Source of the DNA: Phycisphaerae bacterium
GTDB lineage: Bacteria > Planctomycetota > Phycisphaerae > UBA1845
Direction: 5' to 3'
DNA: 64,000 bases
Assembly: GCA_029260075.1 (NCBI GenBank)
Contig: JAJDDY010000018.1
Coordinates: 1-64,000, forward strand
The notes beneath the pieces are model-generated. The model did no database searches and was not told where the DNA came from. It was given only the letters and a program-made list of their open reading frames with translations. The position numbers were made by a program, and so were the translations under genes. This document shows, piece after piece, positions 15,451-48,279 of the stretch. How positions within the stretch are numbered: the first letter of the stretch is position 1; every line of letters starts with the position of its first letter.

Positions 15451-15642
15451 TGCTTTGTCACACATCGAATGAAGGGTTTACCGAGCCGCGCCCGTACGGA
15501 AGCGGACGATTCAAAGCCGGTGTCGACAGATTGGAAACACTCCCTCACGGTCGCGGCTCGGATCGGACAGCTTGAGAACACTCCCTCACGATCGCGGCTC
15601 GGATCGGACCAACCCGTAACTTGAGTTGTGACAAAGCGCTAG
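15451..15642. repeat. Dispersed palindromic repeat, complete copy
   Basis: Begins directly after the redoxin stop codon with TGCTTTGTCACACATCGAAT and ends TTGAGTTGTGACAAAGCGCT, so the ends are inverted copies of about 12 bases. The core has CCGAGCCGCGCCCGT and CACGGTCGCGGCTCGG in opposite orientation. A 32-base block beginning ACACTCCCTCACG is duplicated in tandem (15537-15568 and 15578-15609). Confidence 0.75.
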
Positions 15643-19871: not shown

Positions 19872-20025
19872 TAATGCTCCGTCACGACTCAAATGACGGG
19901 TTCGTCCGACCCGAGCCGCGACCGTGAGGGAGCGCTCTTAATCTATTAGGCCGGATTCCAATCGTCCGCTTCCTCACGGGCGCGGCTCGGTAAACCCGTC
20001 ATTCGATCTGTGACAGCGCACCAGA
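19872..20025. repeat. Dispersed palindromic repeat, complete copy
   Basis: Begins AATGCTCCGTCACGACTCAA, has GAGCCGCGACCGTGAGGGAG in the left core and CTTCCTCACGGGCGCGGCTC in the right core, and ends ATTCGATCTGTGACAGCGCA. The two cores are near-inverted copies. Together with the palindrome at 20139-20170 it fills the space between the helical-protein gene and the permease gene. Confidence 0.7.
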
Positions 20026-34295: not shown

Positions 34296-35845
34296 CCCTC
34301 GCCCCCCCGGTCGTGCGCGCATCCTTCGCCACCCCTCTTGCGCCCGTTGGCCCTAGCGCGCACGCTTGTGCGTGACTCCCTTCTCGCAACGCCCCGTTCA
34401 TTGAGATACGCGGCAATGGCGTCAATGTCGGCGGGCATTTGTACCGCCGGGTTGGCCAGGTGACGTGCCAGATCATTGGCACCGACTTGGTGATGGCTAG
34501 TGTGCGAATCCTCATCACTTGAATCCGTTCCCGCTCCTCGCCCTCCGGAACCCTTGGTGTGATAGTTCACCGTCGCATCAGGATCCTTGAGGCCATGGCC
34601 GGTCAAGATACAGACGACCGTCTCGGACGACCCGATCACACCTTCATCAAGAAGCACGCGCAGACCGGCCACGGAGGCACCGCTGGCTGGTTCGCACCCG
34701 AATCCGAATCGACCAACCAACGCCTTGCCTTCGAGAATGCAGTCGTCGGAAACGGCACGCACAACGCCGTTCATTACATCCAGACTTCGCAACGCCTTGA
34801 CCAAGTTGACCGGTCGGCCGATTTCGATCGCGCTCGCCACTGTATGCGCGCGCCGACCCTGCTCGTCCCACTGCCCGAAGTACGAATCGATCTTGCTGCG
34901 ATCAACGCGACCATCGCGAAACCGTATCCCATGCTCGTTGTACAGATCGAACAATGCGCTGGCGCCGTCGGCGTTGATCACGGCTAGGCGGGGTATGCGA
35001 TCGACCAAGCCCAGCTCGTACAGTTCCATGAACGCCTTGCCAAACGCGCTGGCGTTGCCCAAGTTGCCGCCGGGTACGACGATCCAATCGGGCACTGACC
35101 AACCCAGACCCTCCAGGACGCGATACATGATTGTCTTTTGGCCTTCGAGACGAAAAGGGTTGACGGAGTTGGCCAGGTACAAGTCGAGACCATCCGAGGA
35201 TTGCTGGACCAGTCGCATACACGCGTCGAAGTCGCCGTCTATTTGAATCGTCGTAGCCCCATAGTCCAGCGCTTGGGCGAGCTTACCCTTGGCGATTTTG
35301 CCCCCACCGACAAACACAACGGCCTCTATTGGTTGACCGGTCCGCGTAGACGTCAAGCCAGCCAACATCGCAAGCGACGCGCTGGTATTGCCGGTCGACG
35401 CACATGCGACGCGCGATCGATTCAGGCGGCGGGCCATGGTGAAAGCAGCCACCATGCCGTTGTCTTTGAAGCTACCGCTCGGATTGAAGCCTTCGTATTG
35501 CAGGAAGAGGTGGCCGGCGTCGACACCGATCTCGCGCGCGAGCAAGTCGGCTTGTTGGAGCGTGGTGCGCCCTTCGCCGACCGTCACGAGATCGTCGACG
35601 TCCGCGAAGGGCAGAAGGTCTCGAAACCGCCACACGCCACTCGCGTCGTGCGTACCGGCGGGCCCGCCGCTCGCGCCACGACGAGCGTCGAAGAACGAAA
35701 GCGAGTCGGGTGTGCAGGCACGCGACCAGTCATAACGGACGTCGACTAACGATGCGCACGACGGACAGGCGTACCGCACCTCATCCACGCCGAACGTCTG
35801 ACCGCAGTCGCCGTCAATACATTGTTGGTACGCAAGATCAGCCAT
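34292..35845 (-). CDS. thrC: Threonine synthase
   Basis: A 517-residue PLP enzyme making threonine from O-phosphohomoserine. The N-terminus has a zinc-ribbon-like motif with four cysteines ([10 protein letters not shown] and [16 protein letters not shown]), as in the long class of threonine synthases. The PLP-binding lysine is in [28 protein letters not shown] and [17 protein letters not shown] are the phosphate-binding loops. The C-terminus has a low-complexity part after [10 protein letters not shown] and ends in an arginine-rich tail ([20 protein letters not shown]) encoded by a dispersed repeat. The ATG giving [13 protein letters not shown] fits the family; 16 codons upstream do not. Confidence 0.95.
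34365..34390. repeat. Short dispersed repeat inside the 3' end of thrC
   Basis: CTTGTGCGTGACTCCCTTCT then CGCAAC. It matches the unit GCTCGTGCGTGAATCCTTTC at 42327-42449 and 43063-43120 with a few changes. On the minus strand it encodes ARRESRTS, close to ARKDSRTS in the glycosyltransferase at 42377. Confidence 0.55.
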
Positions 35846-37098: not shown

Positions 37099-37662
37099 TC
37101 CGAGTTTAGAAACGCGGCGACATATCTGACTGCACGCGATTGCAGCCACGGCCTAACCCCAGTGATGATGCGTATTTATTGCCTGGAGCAGTCGTATCCA
37201 ACGCGCGATCTAGTCAATAGCCGCACGTGTGACCGTGCTTTGCGGGGTGCATGACACTCTTGGCGGCATGCGAATCATCGACGAACCTGTGCGCGATTCA
37301 GTCCGCGCCGTAGTTTCTGTCAAAGCCCGAAGCGCAGGCTAGTGCGTCGTCACGCTTGCTTTTGCGGGCATGCCCGAATTGACGGCGACCACCAAACCGA
37401 GCCGCGACCGTGAGGGAGTGTGTTCAGGCATTCGCCACCGGCTTTCGAACGTCCGCTTCGTTACGGGCGCGGCTCGGTAAACCCTTCAATCGATGTGTGA
37501 CAAAGCACTAGCGGATCCTAACACGCTTGATGGACCACCCAAGATCCGGCGCTGGCGCTTCGGCCTCTGAAAGCTGCCCGCCGACGGTGTTACGCACCCT
37601 GGCCGCCGCACCACGAACGATCACGATAGCCAACACCGGCCAGTGTGGTATAATGCCGCGCG
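37099..37662. other. Intergenic region with a complete dispersed repeat
   Basis: Between the SprA-related gene and the SRAP gene. The right half contains the repeat at 37338-37512. TATAAT at about 37650, 13 bases before the SRAP ATG, resembles a -10 box, which would imply a very short leader. Confidence 0.4.
37338..37512. repeat. Dispersed palindromic repeat, complete copy
   Basis: Begins GCTAGTGCGTCGTCACGCTT and ends TCGATGTGTGACAAAGCACT followed by AGC. Cores are CCGAGCCGCGACCGTGAGGG and TTACGGGCGCGGCTCGGTAA, in inverted orientation. It is the same element as at 15451, reversed. Confidence 0.7.
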
Positions 37663-38639: not shown

Positions 38640-38760
38640 CGGAGCCGTGACTGTATGGAAGCGGTCCGTCTGCGAGACGAAAGACCGCTCCCTCACGGTC
38701 GCGGCTCGGTTCGGTTCGGTTCGGTTCGATTCGATTCGAGTCGCGGCTCGGTTCAAAACG
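38640..38760. repeat. Degenerate dispersed repeat with a TCGGT microsatellite
   Basis: TGTATGGAAGCGGTCCGTCT, then CTCCCTCACGGTCGCGGCTC, then about four GGTTC units and two GATTC units (38705-38740), then CGCGGCTCGG again. The pentamer tandem seems to have grown out of the CGGCTCGGTTCGG part of the element. Confidence 0.55.
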
Positions 38761-42326: not shown

Positions 42327-42449
42327 GCTCGTGCGCGAATCCTTTCTCGCACGTACTTGTTGCGTAGTGGCCAATGTCATCGACGGACGCTCGTGCGTGA
42401 ATCCTTTCTCGCACGTACTTGTTGCGTAGTGGCCAATGTCATCGACGGA
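42327..42449. repeat. Two tandem 61-base direct repeats
   Basis: Copies at 42327-42387 and 42389-42449 differ at one position (GCGCGAATCC against GCGTGAATCC). Each begins GCTCGTGCG(C/T)GAATCC and ends GTCATCGACGGA. Shorter variants precede them (42302-42326). The glycosyltransferase gene ends inside the first copy. The unit GTGCGTGAATCCTTTCTCGC recurs at 43063-43120. Confidence 0.85.
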
Positions 42450-43978
42450 ACGGGCGTTGACCCTGCCGGATTCGAACGCTGCTGAACTCCGGTAACGACG
42501 AACTCGAATTGTCGAAGCACCTCGTCCCAGCGGTGGTGCTGGACCACGAACCGCCGGCCGGCGAGTCCAACTGCCCGCCGCACGTCGGGCGATCGCAAGA
42601 GCTTGATGACCGCATCCGAGAATGCGACCTCGCCATCCGCCACGAGATAGTCTTCGCCATGACGCGCCCCAATCCCCGTCGCCGCCTGAGCGGATAGGAC
42701 CACTGGCTTCGTGGCGGCCATGGCTTCCAGCACCTTGTTTTGCAGACCGCGTGCGATTCGAAGCGGCGCAACGCTGACATCCAAGCCCGCCAATTCAGCG
42801 CCCACATCGTCGACCTCGCCAACGACCTCAACGCCCGGTACGAAACCCAAACGCCGAACGGAACGCGACGGGCTCCGTCCGATGATCCGAAAAATCGCCT
42901 GCGGCGACGCCGCGCGGATGGTTGGCCAACACGTGGAGACGAACCAACGGCAAGCGTCGACATTGGGTCGGTAGTTCATTACCCCGATGAATCCGATGAT
43001 CGGTTGCCCGGACGTCATAACGCCAATGTGCGAGCGATCTCCCGCACCCTCGCCGTACAAGCTGGTGCGTGAATCCTTTCCCTCACCTGACGAGCTGGTG
43101 TGTGAATCCTTTCTCGCACCTTCCTTCGCAACCGACGAATCGTGCGGGACCGTATCAACGCACTGACCACCCCGCGGCTCAGAACCTGTGTGAGAATCCT
43201 GCCGAGCCGCGCCCGTCAGGAGGCGACCGGGCTCGCGCGTGAACGTCGCTTCCTCACGGGCGCGGCTCGGTTCGTTGCGAACCGTCTGATGCGTCTTCTC
43301 ACCCACGTCCTCAGAAGTCTCGGCCAACACTCGCTCCGGACTAACCAACAATCGATCACCAAGCAACACACCATTCCCGACAACGTGTACCTTTCCAGTG
43401 CCAACATGTGGCACCAACGGACGGCCTTCGGCTTCCGTGATCACCATCGCCGCGTCGAGTTGGTTGGCCCAATACCTTTCGCGTTCAAAAAGCTGCCGCC
43501 CTTCCATCTCATAGAGCCGGCGCAACGGCCAGCGTGACTTGGCTGCGTAGTCCAACCACTTCTGACTGTCGAGATCGCAGAAATCGAGGACGCGCCGGTC
43601 GGCTGCAACCTCCTGCGTGTAGGCGGCCATCCCGGAAGAAAACGCCACGGCCACATCGAACTTGATCGACTCCGACCAACGGTGAAGGGCCAGGGTCATC
43701 GCTGTATGGCGATAGTACGATTCCGTCAACGTCTTTCCACGCAGAAGGCCAAGTAACCCACGAATTCGAGCGCGAAGCCGGCCGATCGGAATCGCAACGA
43801 CATCTTCGCACCGGCGGCGCAGCGGCTCGACGAAGCGCAATTCGTCGGACGAATCGACAAAACACGCACACCAAACCCGATGCCGACTCGCAAGATGATC
43901 AAGCTGACGGAACGAACGGATCTTGTCCCCTTTGTTCGGCGGAAACGGTATGCGATGGGCCAGATAGAGAATATTCAA
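42377..43978 (-). CDS. Glycosyltransferase family 4-like protein of the XrtA/PEP-CTERM sugar transferase group (TIGR03087-like) with repeat-derived insert
   Basis: A 533-residue enzyme. The N-terminal half begins NILYLAHRIPFPPNKGDKIR and has RVLDFCDLDSQKWLDYA and RYWANQLDAAMVITEAEG, matching the exosortase-associated sugar transferases. The C-terminal half starts IIGFIGVMNYRPNVDACRWF and has RGLQNKVLEAMAATKPVVLS, the GT4 donor site. Between them, residues 219-322 replace the usual short linker. This stretch is built from dispersed repeats (EEATFTREPGRLLTGAARQ, ARKDSHTSSSGEG, GKDSRTSLYGEG). The C-terminal ARKDSRTSVRR is from the same short repeat. TTG start, just after the FemAB-like stop. Confidence 0.85.
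   Translation of the reverse strand: MNILYLAHRIPFPPNKGDKIRSFRQLDHLASRHRVWCACFVDSSDELRFVEPLRRRCEDVVAIPIGRLRARIRGLLGLLRGKTLTESYYRHTAMTLALHRWSESIKFDVAVAFSSGMAAYTQEVAADRRVLDFCDLDSQKWLDYAAKSRWPLRRLYEMEGRQLFERERYWANQLDAAMVITEAEGRPLVPHVGTGKVHVVGNGVLLGDRLLVSPERVLAETSEDVGEKTHQTVRNEPSRAREEATFTREPGRLLTGAARQDSHTGSEPRGGQCVDTVPHDSSVAKEGARKDSHTSSSGEGKDSRTSLYGEGAGDRSHIGVMTSGQPIIGFIGVMNYRPNVDACRWFVSTCWPTIRAASPQAIFRIIGRSPSRSVRRLGFVPGVEVVGEVDDVGAELAGLDVSVAPLRIARGLQNKVLEAMAATKPVVLSAQAATGIGARHGEDYLVADGEVAFSDAVIKLLRSPDVRRAVGLAGRRFVVQHHRWDEVLRQFEFVVTGVQQRSNPAGSTPVPSMTLATTQQVRARKDSRTSVRR
43063..43120. repeat. Two short repeat units inside the glycosyltransferase gene
   Basis: GGTGCGTGAATCCTTTCCCT (from 43063) and GGTGTGTGAATCCTTTCTCG (from 43097). 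On the minus strand they encode GKDSRTS and ARKDSHTS. A third, weaker unit (TGTGTGAGAATCCT) lies at 43187-43200. Confidence 0.75.
43201..43275. repeat. Dispersed palindromic repeat core inside a coding sequence
   Basis: CCGAGCCGCGCCCGT (43202-43216) and ACGGGCGCGGCTCGG (43256-43270) are perfect 15-base inverted copies. This is the same core as in the intergenic copies. Here it is translated in frame as NEPSRAREEATFTREP and GRLLTGAARQ. Confidence 0.8.
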
Positions 43979-43982
43979 CGTG

Positions 43983-45077
43983 CTATCCCGGTATGTGTTT
44001 CGAAATCTCTGCCCCGAGGATGCGCGTTACGGACAACGGGAGGTATCGCCAAATCCGTCGCCCGAGTCGAAACTTGGGGTTGTTGGGTGAAAGATCGGGC
44101 GCCGCGTCGGCAGTCAACAAGCAACGTTGATAACTAAGCGGAGTGGGCGCGAACCCGTGGAATCGCTTGAAGTCGAACGAGCCCGTATTGTCTCGCCGCG
44201 ACCGGCCGAAATCGAACACACGATAACCACTCGCCACCGCGCGTTCCATCAACGTCAGATAGATGAAATTCGCGGCGCTGTAGTGCCTCGCGTCGTCGGT
44301 CGTGCCAATAAAATAGGGTATGATTCGATCGCGATGCATGAGCGAGACCAACCCGGCGATGGGTCGACCTTCACGCCGCACGATCGACACCCAAGCGCGC
44401 TCGGGCATCTCATCGACCAACGCCTCGAAGAAACGAAACGGGTAAGCCAGCGACCCGAGTCTTCTCATACTGATCGAATAGAGTCGCCACACTTCGTGCA
44501 GGTGCTGGGCACCGAAATCAACTTCGAGCTTGAACTTGTTCCTTGCGTTGCGCGCCGCCGCACGCGCCTTGCGCGGCAACCACCCAAGCACATCTTCCAC
44601 ACGATCGGGCAGCGTGCGGCGAAAGTTGACGTATCGATCCACGATCGGAAGTCCGGGAATGACGGCCTGTTCGCTGCGAAGGTCAATCCATCGACAACGT
44701 CGATCGCGCGCCGCAACACGCGCGGCGTCGAAAAGTTGCTCACGGGCTTCGACATCGTCCGCGACAATCCCCCCACCCACGGCGTACGGCACGCTCACGA
44801 GCATCGGGCCACCGATGCGGCTTCGAACGAAGAACGTCGGCAAGACACCCGCCACGCGTTCGCCGCGCCGGGCCACAAAGTATAAGGGCTCATGTTTGAA
44901 CGCAGAGGCCACCGCGTCGCGCCATCCCAACGTATGAAAAACCGTCCCGGAGTCTTGAGCCTGAACGTAGGACGTCCACGCGCAATGGTCCACGGGGTCA
45001 AGCGCACGAGTCAAACACGGCGACATCGATGGCGCCTGAATGAATGGTGGAGCAACGAGGACAGCCGAACTAGACAT
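43983..45077 (-). CDS. FemAB-like protein of the PEP-CTERM/exosortase group (TIGR03019-like)
   Basis: A 364-residue soluble protein with two GNAT-like halves. Family stretches are FHTLGWRDAVASAFKHEPLY, VSVPYAVGGGIVADD, GWLPRKARAAARNARNK and HYSAANFIYLTLMERAVASG, then YRVFDFGRSRRDNTGSFDFK. Homologues accompany exosortase-associated polysaccharide clusters, and FemAB proteins use aminoacyl donors, so it may modify an exopolysaccharide or its carrier. The ATG overlaps the CapK-like stop by eight bases, and the glycosyltransferase follows five bases after its stop, so the three genes are one operon. Confidence 0.85.
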   Translation of the reverse strand: MSSSAVLVAPPFIQAPSMSPCLTRALDPVDHCAWTSYVQAQDSGTVFHTLGWRDAVASAFKHEPLYFVARRGERVAGVLPTFFVRSRIGGPMLVSVPYAVGGGIVADDVEAREQLFDAARVAARDRRCRWIDLRSEQAVIPGLPIVDRYVNFRRTLPDRVEDVLGWLPRKARAAARNARNKFKLEVDFGAQHLHEVWRLYSISMRRLGSLAYPFRFFEALVDEMPERAWVSIVRREGRPIAGLVSLMHRDRIIPYFIGTTDDARHYSAANFIYLTLMERAVASGYRVFDFGRSRRDNTGSFDFKRFHGFAPTPLSYQRCLLTADAAPDLSPNNPKFRLGRRIWRYLPLSVTRILGAEISKHIPG

Positions 45078-46530
45078 GCGACAATGTCTCCACACAGGAA
45101 GTCACACACGGACGCTTAACCCGAGACTCGACGTAGCGGTACTTGCCGGATGCGGTCGACGCGATGAAATCGACGAAGCGGACGCGCAGATCGACCTCGT
45201 TTCCGATCGCGCGGCGAACATGTTCCGTGACGTTCTCCTCGGAGAGAGACCCGCAATCGTCGTCGGCCACGATCTCCACGGTGACGGCGTATCGTTCGTC
45301 TTGTACGACGTGAAACTGGCGCACGCCCGGCATTTCGCGCAGCGGATAGATTATGGAGAGCGCGTGCTTGACCGTTCCATCGGGCAAGTAAAGGAAATCG
45401 GTCGTGCGGCCAAGCACAATGTCCATCAATCCGAGACCGCGACCGCACGCACAGCGCCCGTGCTTCAGGCGACCCACGTCACCGGTTCGATAGCGGATCA
45501 TTGGCATGGCGTACGCATCGAGATGCGTAACGACAATCTCGCCCGTTTCGCCGACCGGGAGCACGCCGCCCTGCTCGTCGAGTACTTCGACGATCACATT
45601 TTCGGATGTGATGTGCATCGATCCCTCGGGACACTCATGCGCTATGAACCCGGCTTCTCGGCTTCCGTATCCGTTGGCGACCGGCGCGCCAAAGTACGCT
45701 GCGATCGTTTCACGTTGATGCGGATGGCAAACTTCGCCGGTTACAAACACAGCGCGGAGCGCGGTAAGGTCGATGGCACGGCCGCGTGCGTGATCCGCGA
45801 GAAGTGCGATGCTGCTGGGATATCCGAACAAGCACGCCGGTCGGAATCGATCCCACTCATCGAGGTACCGGTCCATTGTCGCGGCGGACATGTCGAACGC
45901 GTTGACCAGGCGTTGATTGAAGCAGGAATCACGCCACCGCTTAAGCCGGTCCGTACGCAAGTTTTCCGTGGGCGAGCCCCAAAGATACAACTCCCGATCG
46001 CCCATCTCGACGCCGAACCATCGGTGCGTACGAATGCGCGCGGCTTGGTCGTACGCCTGACGGCGGCGGTCGAAGAAAAACGCCAGCGGCTCGCCGGTCG
46101 ATCCGCCGGTGTGCGACGAGAAAACACCATGGGGCGCATTGCGCCAGATCATTTCTTCCGCCGACTCACGGATGTCCTGTTTGGTCAGTGGCGGGATGGA
46201 CGACAGGGCCGCACCGGGATCGTCCATTGCGGGGTCGACGCCGGCTCGGCGCAATCGATCGCGATAGAACGACGTGTTCATTGTCGCATGATGAAAGAGC
46301 GCCGAGAGTTTCGTTCGCTGTAGCTCCGCGAGATCAGTTGGCGCTAACCACTGCGACGAATCAAGAATCCGCGCACACCGAAACGTGTCGCGCCCAAGCA
46401 GACGCTCGTGTATCGGGCATACGAGATAGCGTGAAACGAACGAATTCAAAGACACCACCGAACAATGGGGATGGAGCCAAACCGTAGGCGCCGCGCGCAC
46501 GGTCGCCGCTACGGACGGCGGCAGACGCAT
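45070..46530 (-). CDS. CapK/phenylacetate-CoA ligase-like adenylate-forming enzyme
   Basis: A 486-residue member of the ANL superfamily related to CapK and phenylacetate-CoA ligase. The ATP-binding loop is SSHTGGSTGEPLAFFFD, and the adenylation motifs YGSREAGFIAHECPEG and MIRYRTGDVGRLKHGRCACG are intact. The first 60 residues are not conserved. CapK-like proteins are frequent in exosortase-associated polysaccharide clusters, where the substrate is unknown. It is the first gene of a three-gene operon with the FemAB-like protein and the sugar transferase. Confidence 0.88.
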   Translation of the reverse strand: MRLPPSVAATVRAAPTVWLHPHCSVVSLNSFVSRYLVCPIHERLLGRDTFRCARILDSSQWLAPTDLAELQRTKLSALFHHATMNTSFYRDRLRRAGVDPAMDDPGAALSSIPPLTKQDIRESAEEMIWRNAPHGVFSSHTGGSTGEPLAFFFDRRRQAYDQAARIRTHRWFGVEMGDRELYLWGSPTENLRTDRLKRWRDSCFNQRLVNAFDMSAATMDRYLDEWDRFRPACLFGYPSSIALLADHARGRAIDLTALRAVFVTGEVCHPHQRETIAAYFGAPVANGYGSREAGFIAHECPEGSMHITSENVIVEVLDEQGGVLPVGETGEIVVTHLDAYAMPMIRYRTGDVGRLKHGRCACGRGLGLMDIVLGRTTDFLYLPDGTVKHALSIIYPLREMPGVRQFHVVQDERYAVTVEIVADDDCGSLSEENVTEHVRRAIGNEVDLRVRFVDFIASTASGKYRYVESRVKRPCVTSCVETLSHV

Positions 46531-46724: not shown

Positions 46725-47348
46725 TCAGTCGCGTCGACGCCTACGTACCAGCGCGACGCAGCCCGCAAGAAGCAGTGCGACGCTCGAGGGCTCGGGGACC
46801 GCCGCGACGTTGTCGATGACCAACTCCTGACCGCCGATCGTGAAACGCTGGATCTGGTGGAGCTCATCTGTGGTCAGCGTCAATCGGCCGTCCGCCACGG
46901 TCACGAAAATACCGTTCGAAATGGACGACGGGACATCCGAGAGGTCGTCGACCTGAATGATCGTTTCCGAGTTGACGCCGAAATTGACGCGGCCGCCGAA
47001 GTCAATGAAATCGAGCGAGACGTTGGTAACGTCGCTGGACAAATCGCTGAAATCGAACTGCGCGCTGATGCTTCTCAGTTCGAGCGGTGTGGTATCGAAC
47101 TGGTCGGCGTATTGGCCACCAACCTCTGCCTTGCCGAATCCGACGAAGCCCGGGACCAGGAAATCCCGGATCACCATTCGAATACCGTCTTGGGTCAATA
47201 CCGTGTCGCCGGACGAGTCGCCAAAATCGCCGCCGAATTTCATGCCCGGCGGGAGGGACTCGAAGTCAACAACCGCGCCCTCGCAGGGCATGGCCACCGC
47301 AGCGAGAAACCCAGCGAGGCAAACGCCGAACCCCAATCGTGATCCCAT
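46725..47348 (-). CDS. PEP-CTERM sorting domain protein
   Basis: A 207-residue exported protein. It has a signal peptide (LGFGVCLAGFLAAVAMPCEGA), a beta-rich domain starting VVDFESLPPGMKFGGDFGD, and the C-terminal tripartite sorting signal AAVPEPSSVALLLAGCVALV followed by RRRRRD. That signal is recognised by an exosortase in the inner membrane, usually with attachment of exopolysaccharide. The ATG is supported by GGGG at a good distance; a TTG six codons upstream is also in frame. It is next to the CapK-FemAB-glycosyltransferase operon, but 194 bases away. Confidence 0.92.
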   Translation of the reverse strand: MGSRLGFGVCLAGFLAAVAMPCEGAVVDFESLPPGMKFGGDFGDSSGDTVLTQDGIRMVIRDFLVPGFVGFGKAEVGGQYADQFDTTPLELRSISAQFDFSDLSSDVTNVSLDFIDFGGRVNFGVNSETIIQVDDLSDVPSSISNGIFVTVADGRLTLTTDELHQIQRFTIGGQELVIDNVAAVPEPSSVALLLAGCVALVRRRRRD

Positions 47349-48279
47349 GATCCAATCCCCCGTCAATCTAACCCGGCGCGACGCGCCCGTGCGTTATGCG
47401 TAGTCCATTGTTCCCGATTGGACGCTCATCAAAACCAGGGGACACCATAGCCGAGCGAGGACGAAACCCACTGGTCTGGCACCCTGTGCTCCGCGAAGTC
47501 GCACAGCGCTCCCTACCGAGTACGATAATGAAGTCACCCGGCAAAATCAACCACCTGACCGGAAAAGCCAGGCAAATGTCACTGGAGATGGGGGCGGCAC
47601 GACTGTTTTCGGACGACGCCGGCCCGACGCGATCGAGCGGTCGACCGGCCATGTCCATCACTACAGCGCGGTAGTGGATGATTCCAGATTATTATTTGCG
47701 CCAGGATAAGCCAATTGGCGCCCAGATCACGCGTAGTCAGATGTCCGGGCGCATGCGCGGGCATGCTTCGCGTCGCCGCTAGGTCCGAGAAGCGGTACGT
47801 GGAGGCATGCACGTTTCTGCGAACCGGCGAAGTTGACGGGTTGCGGCTTGGTGCGGCGCCCGTCGGTAAGCCGACCGCCAGATGTTCTCCGACGGATTCG
47901 TCCCGTGGCGATCGGTTGCGTTGGGCTTGTGCCCGCACAATTGGCGGGTGGATTTGCCTTTGCGGTCCGAGCGAGCATAGCCTCCCATGGGGAACCGGTG
48001 CTGGCGTGGATGCACAGGCGTGCCTTTGCGGCCTGGGAACGACGCGAGACGTCCGATAGCTCGCTTGTGAATACCGTTGTATTTGCACGATTGAGCGGAT
48101 AGACTCTATGCGGCGTTACCAATGGGGAGAGAAACGATCGGCGACATATCGTCTATCATCGGTGCGAGGGTCAAACGGGAATTCAGGTCTGGTGCCTGTT
48201 GACGTGCGCGGTCTCCATCGCGCGCTGGTTGCTGCCCAAACACGGGCGCCGGCGCGTCGGCCGCTAAGGGGTTGTAGCA
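47349..48279. other. Long intergenic region (931 bases), no gene recognised
   Basis: Between the PEP-CTERM gene (minus) and the first of the plus-strand mosaic proteins. Frames near 47715-48102 give cysteine- and arginine-rich products without family resemblance. No copy of the dispersed repeat is visible. Both flanking genes need promoters here. Confidence 0.4.

Follow-up and report, generated by a model that had tools for sequence, protein, structure and literature searches.

Repeats of two families read in frame in the linker of a planctomycete glycosyltransferase, and related transposases within host enzyme genes

Introduction

The stp1 glycosyltransferase gene of a Phycisphaerae bacterium (assembly GCA_029260075.1) encodes about 100 residues between its two domains that are missing from its measured homologues. 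What is this extra sequence, and where did it come from? A preliminary description had proposed that a dispersed repeat was inserted in frame into the glycosyltransferase linker. We addressed the question in the window, by which we mean the whole stretch of DNA analyzed (64,000 nucleotides, positions 1 to 64,000 of contig JAJDDY010000018.1), and in the source genome and its relatives. The linkers of homologues, the genome-wide repeat counts and a predicted disordered loop all agree with the proposal.

Results

The host gene occupies positions 42377-43978 on the minus strand and encodes a 533-aa protein. Its product matched TIGR03087 (stp1), an XrtA/PEP-CTERM glycosyltransferase family, with about 392.4-392.6 bits against a cut-off of 316.65, and in a search of 40 genomes, source genome included, it was the sole match above the cut-off in the source genome. 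The profile aligned as two segments (1-205 and 222-394) that are 354 bases apart in a single open frame. AlphaFold2, supplied with 35 sequences, predicted a two-Rossmann (GT-B type) fold with a mean pLDDT of 80.7 (at least 90 at 362 of 533 residues), and the top Foldseek matches of the model were two-domain GT-B glycosyltransferases, for example GlgM, MshA and PimB'. The neighboring FemAB-like gene (43983-45095, TIGR03019) likewise belongs to the XrtA/PEP-CTERM system. Near these XrtA-associated genes, a small protein encoded at 46725-47366 on the minus strand has a C-terminal sequence, VPEPSSVALLLAGCVALVRRRRRD, that looks by eye like a PEP-CTERM sorting signal.

To measure the linker we ran the two halves of the protein separately in tblastn. 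From residue 206 to residue 324 the stp1 product has 117 linker residues, compared with 9-65 (median 15) in its homologues, where 98 of 108 measured loci had 20 or fewer. The 109 homologue loci comprised 29 from relatives' genomes and 80 from a second collection of genome contigs; one, L262, had the second half only and could not be measured, and five were the same contig present in both collections, so that about 103 measured loci are distinct. The proposed borders of the insert, residues 219-322 (43013-43324, minus strand, about 102 residues), were right to within the alignment. Distant homologues carrying an insert of about 100 residues but lacking the repeat were looked for, and a linker of 100 residues or more was seen at none of the 108 measured loci. 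In the AlphaFold2 model, pLDDT fell below 50 at residues 220-313 and 517-530; since the first of these segments lies between confident domains, the insert is predicted to be a disordered interdomain loop.

The longer homologue linkers, five of Sphingomonas type (50-54 residues) and one from Thermoguttaceae (65 residues), indicate that the site tolerates added length, as had been suggested. The nearest empty sites, those with a short linker, sit in other genera than the source genome, and none of the same genus was present in the genomes searched; we therefore infer movement into the site. Two other homologues drew our attention. The glycosyltransferase at L018 (G020) has a smaller insert, RGTGVPPVTTGA, just upstream of the conserved HIIGNG of stp1, which by its look belongs to another repeat family. 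At L266:3001-5327 the match to a proteobacterial homologue spans about twice the usual length, and the linker is normal.

Two kinds of repeat, which we call E1 and E2, were recognized in the insert. The E2 element (43202-43270, no strand assigned, as for the other E2 pairs below) consists of two head-to-head copies with CCGA feet. Its inverted arms, 43202-43227 and 43245-43270, are 26 nt long and 92% complementary, with the outer 15 positions perfect; the whole is 69 nt (23 codons), is read as PSRAREEATFTREPGRLLTGAAR, and folds with RNA parameters into a predicted hairpin of -57.5 kcal/mol. E1 is represented by two plus-strand copies, each a GCT foot plus hairpin, at 43061-43088 (34.0 bits with the E1 covariance model) and, 33 nt away, at 43094-43121 (46.4 bits). 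A 33-nt direct repeat at 43047 and 43080 is 85% identical. Both repeats noticed earlier, the 15-base inverted one and the second one, are thus real, but they do not form one family: they belong to two unrelated families with different transposases.

E2 (GTCGCTYCCTSACGGKCGCGGCTCGG) occurred at 598 places in the source genome with a 26-nt pattern (up to 3 mismatches) and at 821 places with a looser 22-nt pattern (up to 1 mismatch); the reversed pattern gave 0 in both cases. Allowing up to 3 mismatches, the window held 16 copies. Twelve of these formed six head-to-head (-,+) pairs whose members are 43-55 nt apart, compared with 0.019 such pairs expected under random placement. All six pairs folded to single long hairpins (-31 to -57.5 kcal/mol, RNA parameters), that of stp1 being the most stable. 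The pair at 15481-15561 has the same architecture as the stp1 pair, and the others lie at 839-919, 19911-19990, 37397-37477 and 38640-38709. Because the pairs are head to head at a fixed distance and each makes one long hairpin, their layout is that of a REPIN. Five of the six pairs have CCGA at the left end and five have its reverse complement on the right, both being present in the stp1 pair; E2 therefore has the 5' CnGA foot and hairpin that define repeats of class 3. In a phylum sample of 199 genomes, any E2 was found in seven and at least 30 copies in three (the source genome G000, 821; G147, 294; G264, 67).

E1 (GTGCGTGAATCCTTTCTCGCAC) was found at 256 places in the source genome (up to 3 mismatches; reversed-pattern control, 0) and, with up to 2 mismatches, in 11 of the 51 genomes of the family, source genome included. 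It is a 22-nt hairpin with an 8-pair stem that follows a GCT foot, and 64 distinct copies from outside the window gave the consensus GCTGGTGCGTGAATCCTTTCTCGCACC. Its stem has a few compensatory changes and its covariation is modest, 25 of 500 shuffles being as high. A covariance model built from those 64 non-window copies only identified five sites in the window at E <0.01: the two of the insert, a further two a short way downstream, and one at 34364. Of the downstream plus-strand copies, that at 42389-42416, 3' of the insert, gives about the last ten residues of the stp1 product (RARKDSRTS) before the stop, and that at 42327-42354 is intergenic and forms a 62-nt tandem unit with it. The E1 foot, GCT(G), differs from the conserved GT[AG]G foot of TnpA-REP REPs, and for this reason we term E1 REP-like rather than a GTAG REP.

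As to where E1 is placed, we looked at 157 of the 256 copies, in 75 stretches around E1 matches and transposase hits, and found 124 candidate frames with at least 40 residues on each side. Of twelve long frames picked by hand, ten were scanned with Pfam; three contained a family, and E1 lay upstream of the family in each. E1 as a coding family was therefore not supported. Within this set of 157 copies and ten scanned frames, the stp1 pair were the only E1 copies placed inside a conserved gene, and E1 copies seem to be mostly intergenic. A five-copy E1 array with an exact 43-nt period was seen at L043:1520-1713 (G000:C52). Near E1 copies at L037, L062, L066 and elsewhere there are also hairpins that share the GAATCC centre of E1 on different stems (for example GCGGGAATCCCTTCCCGC and TGCCGTGAATCCTTTCTCGGCA), which look as if stems had diversified around one loop.

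Recognizable repeat does not fill the insert. By eye, up to three more hairpins could be drawn and the insert read as a pure E1 array; this was rejected, as the covariance model gave the candidate decayed copies at 43138-43165, 43026-43051 and 43184-43209 only 5.0, 6.8 and 1.7 bits (E 0.5-10), below significance. Repeat was limited to residues ~237-259 and ~286-307, and none was recognizable in linker residues ~207-236, 260-285 and 308-323 (candidate decayed copies <9 bits), so the idea that the insert is made of repeats stands for part of its length. One could suppose from these unassigned segments, and from the longer linkers of the Sphingomonas-type and Thermoguttaceae homologues, that the insert is an old, selected low-complexity spacer whose likeness to repeats arose by copying of coding DNA or by convergence. 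We consider this very unlikely: E1 and E2 occur in hundreds of copies elsewhere, with hairpin feet and pairing, and the insert fits their consensus at the DNA level.

In the host frame the insert contains no stop, as the preliminary description had it, and the other five frames contain 2-6 stops. The probability of 102 open codons at the base composition of the insert is 0.038, which is not negligible and, together with an assembly of 93 contigs, leaves some room for stp1 being a pseudogene or an assembly chimera with an accidentally open frame. This reading is nevertheless extremely unlikely. Both halves of the protein together exceed the family cut-off in what is the only such copy in the genome, and the product keeps every one of the 34 columns found invariant among its 34 aligned homologues, as well as 24 of the 25 columns conserved in at least 90% of them. 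In addition, in-frame insertions of a similar kind are seen again in other genomes, including one that is a single contig (G357, below). Five of six frames are open through the E1 and E2 cores, so that a loop insertion of suitable length can be read through, and selection would remove the rest. In stp1 the spacing of the E1 copies (33 nt) and the length of the REPIN (69 nt) are both multiples of three. The claim that the element can generate protein sequence accordingly holds for the reading frame, from which protein would presumably be made.

We then considered the transposases of the source genome, which has six matches to Y1_Tnp (PF01797). One, at L037, is a REP-associated transposase (RAYT; 26.6 bits) that matched the E. 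coli TnpA-REP structure 4er8 with an E value of 1.3e-6. E1 copies flank it, one lying 42 nt upstream of the presumed ATG and another 85 nt beyond the stop codon, and seven E1 copies lie within about 2 kb. With REPs flanking a RAYT, this is the layout of a REPtron.

Two other matches lie in frame within other genes. At L042:1649-5614 (G000:C54, plus strand) a RAYT (Y1_Tnp 25.8 bits) is embedded in a 1322-aa frame with the domains of alaS, the only alaS found in the source genome, whose three alaS matches are pieces of this one frame. At L041:1320-3716 (G000:C88, plus strand) a RAYT of another kind (25.7 bits) lies in the 799-aa frame of the only purH found; the purH profile (511 positions) breaks into 1-262 and 263-511 around a stretch of 711 nt, and apart from these pieces purH matched just once, weakly and over 51 positions, in a 1299-aa frame. 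The Y1_Tnp cut-off in the genome search was 23 bits, and hmmscan at E 1e-4 listed no Y1_Tnp for either locus; the L042 RAYT is also backed by BLAST similarity to other RAYTs. GTGFQPV / HRLEAGA coding repeats flank the purH RAYT and look by eye like a third repeat family.

Such arrangements were found in other genomes as well. Y1_Tnp matched in 49 of the 51 genomes of the family, with at least ten matches in frames of 923-1583 aa. Twenty cases were fetched, with frame lengths of 469-1583 aa in twelve and 320-366 aa in eight, and 14 were scanned with Pfam. Host domains stood on both sides of the RAYT in alaS (G046, G017, G011), leuS (G048), valS (G019) and an MmeI-like methyltransferase (G016). 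The RAYT was in frame before or after recognized host domains of mutS (G062), N6_N4 methyltransferases (G051, G006), an MmeI-like methyltransferase (G059) and, in G022, a purH running off the contig end. Y1_Tnp stood alone in the remaining three. Further alaS-embedded RAYTs were found in G013, G050 and G015, making seven of the 51 family genomes, source genome included, with a RAYT in alaS (49 had an alaS match, several incomplete); five sit at profile position ~253-267 and two at ~378-380. Among 294 genomes of the phylum, 39 had a relative of the alaS RAYT. In the single-contig genome G357 an alaS-type RAYT is bordered by Eco57I and DUF7008 domains, the frame being 1614 aa long, and in G264 one lies inside valS. 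The loci at which Y1_Tnp is in frame in or beside methyltransferase, leuS, valS, mutS and purH domains of other planctomycete genomes are L140-L143, L146, L148, L149, L151, L300 and L301.

A general artefact of GC-rich frames was considered and rejected as the source of in-frame transposases: for DDE_Tnp_1 in the same 51 genomes no frame exceeded 788 aa among the matches listed, a comparison of listed matches with those of Y1_Tnp and not of rates. In three of the seven alaS cases (G000, G011, G017) there was no in-frame ATG, GTG or TTG in the 44 codons before the RAYT, so translation there probably yields the transposase joined to the synthetase or to a piece of it.

The in-frame RAYTs of alaS type are accompanied by E2. 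In all nine frames compared by hand (seven alaS, one valS and one methyltransferase), the host frame contained E2, with up to 4 mismatches, both before and after the RAYT; at L042 three copies precede it and one follows. The purH frame, with its different RAYT, had no E2 at this threshold. Each of the three genomes with at least 30 E2 copies contains a relative of the alaS RAYT. The link is not exclusive, however, as 22 of the 27 RAYT-holding genomes among the 199 were without E2 by the 22-nt pattern, and there the RAYTs must work with different repeats or without any. Several alaS sites of other genomes have further in-frame peptides (SRDREGA, SRDRKGA and similar) that come from the same repeats. 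In the source genome each family is associated with its own transposase, E2 with a class-3-like TnpA-Y1 (RAYT-like) and E1 with a TnpA-REP relative.

We say class-3-like for the following reason. All five RAYTs at the first alaS site carry NHVH, W[TA]RHG and Y----Q, the general class 3 TnpA-Y1 signature, but none fits the table consensus YV[VI][AENY]EQ, the corresponding sequences being YVMESQ, YVMESQ, YVVEAQ, YVEEDQ and YVTEGQ. A comparison of the alaS RAYT with solved structures gave no match at E 0.01.

A tree was made of 38 rows, after five of the 43 sequences had been removed because they were duplicate, partial or distant. In it the five first-site alaS RAYTs grouped together with support of 88/98 and in 90% of 200 bootstrap trees; the support is below the program mark of 95, the bootstrap was unsettled, and a label shuffle did as well in 73 of 500 trials. 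Over all ten pairs of these five, pN/pS was 0.21-0.34 and pS 0.67-0.81, and the part of alaS upstream of the RAYT gave a pN/pS of 0.11-0.25. As synonymous sites are near saturation, either the alaS insertion is old or copies have been exchanged. To judge from these ratios, the alaS RAYT protein is constrained by purifying selection, with its catalytic motifs kept across five genera.

Could the stp1 insertion itself be beneficial, its hairpins regulating the mRNA or its loop altering the enzyme? Selection on the alaS-embedded RAYTs and the very stable hairpin predicted for the stp1 E2 pair speak for benefit. Nothing specific to stp1 does, however, and as the insert is common to none of the measured relatives it leaves no record of maintenance. 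We therefore regard benefit as very improbable.

Discussion

Taken together, the data make it very probable that the extra ~100 residues of stp1 are translated mobile DNA: an E2 REPIN and at least two E1 REP-like copies that settled in an interdomain loop. Most likely, a transposase would act at the hairpin foot, nicking and joining the folded single strand, and the survivors would be those insertions that fall in a loop, have a length that is a multiple of three and contain no stop, and are thus tolerated. We infer transposition by the E1- and E2-linked enzymes, an order of insertion, and a stp1 product that is made and active. In vitro, TnpA-REP cleaves and joins REPs as folded single strands (PMC8266576, from its excerpted text), the enzymes there being others than those of E1 and E2.

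Insertion of REPs or REPINs in frame into a loose loop is a kind of event already known from Rickettsia palindromic elements and Opitutus REPs. The former, described by Ogata et al., are reportedly palindromic repeats of about 150 bp that lie in frame in many unrelated genes. Excerpts of PMC10969869 and PMC3733652 cite such in-frame elements and mention no association with RAYTs, whereas E1 and E2 each occur with one. GTAG/CGTC REPs and REP pairs are described in frame in conserved genes, including repair genes and tRNA synthetases, and loops are suggested as places where they are tolerated (Di Nocera et al. 2013, PMC3733652, in part). E1 and E2 in stp1 resemble these in position but belong to other repeat families, and a whole in-frame transposase is not mentioned in that part of the paper. 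REPINs, as defined in the portion of Bertels and Rainey (2011, PMC3116915) at hand, are two head-to-head REPs and a spacer that make one hairpin and are tied to a RAYT; E2 shares the head-to-head layout, the single hairpin and the tie. Most REPINs of that portion lie outside genes (overlap with genes is given for only 14 of the most abundant 16-mers), whereas the stp1 E2 pair is intragenic.

In the class 3 TnpA-Y1 systems, also among the closest known, the foot of the repeats is CnGA (Quentin et al. 2018, PMC6006769, here and below from excerpts). The likeness lies in the NHVH, W[TA] and Y----Q motifs of the alaS RAYTs, the CCGA start of E2, the occurrence in Planctomycetes and the hundreds of repeat copies in one genome. 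The difference lies in the table consensus (drawn from 14 proteins), which matched none of the five alaS RAYTs, and in the position of the element, here in frame inside host genes. According to the excerpts, REPs also lie in frame within tnpA-REP genes of subclass 2.4. What is new is a complete RAYT in frame within single-copy essential genes, kept across genera. We found no description of a RAYT in frame inside a tRNA synthetase in the open-licence literature, outside which most subscription papers lie.

On balance we lean toward a joint reading of these observations, in which RAYT transposons of Planctomycetota have become translated parts of host proteins. E2 and a class-3-like RAYT would form a cassette set in frame in loops of essential enzymes (alaS, valS). 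Where it has no start codon of its own, the cassette would have its transposase made through translation of the host enzyme, and it could be lost only through exact in-frame excision; the stp1 REPIN would be its non-autonomous form. With its catalytic motifs kept over five genera, the alaS RAYT may have been domesticated as a domain of alanyl-tRNA synthetase, or it may be a parasite that its host gene protects.

For stp1 alone, the meaning is modest: it is a new example of a known process. Whole transposases read through essential genes and selected across genera would be an unusual survival route for a mobile element and, if so, both its expression and its protection would come from the host enzyme. 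The RAYT within a host gene offers a clear test of how selfish DNA turns into protein. In-frame RAYTs may also account for some of the 'unexpectedly long' transposase proteins discarded in a family survey and, if the fusion enzymes are made whole, they would amount to domain-insertion experiments made by nature in tRNA synthetases, purH and methyltransferases.
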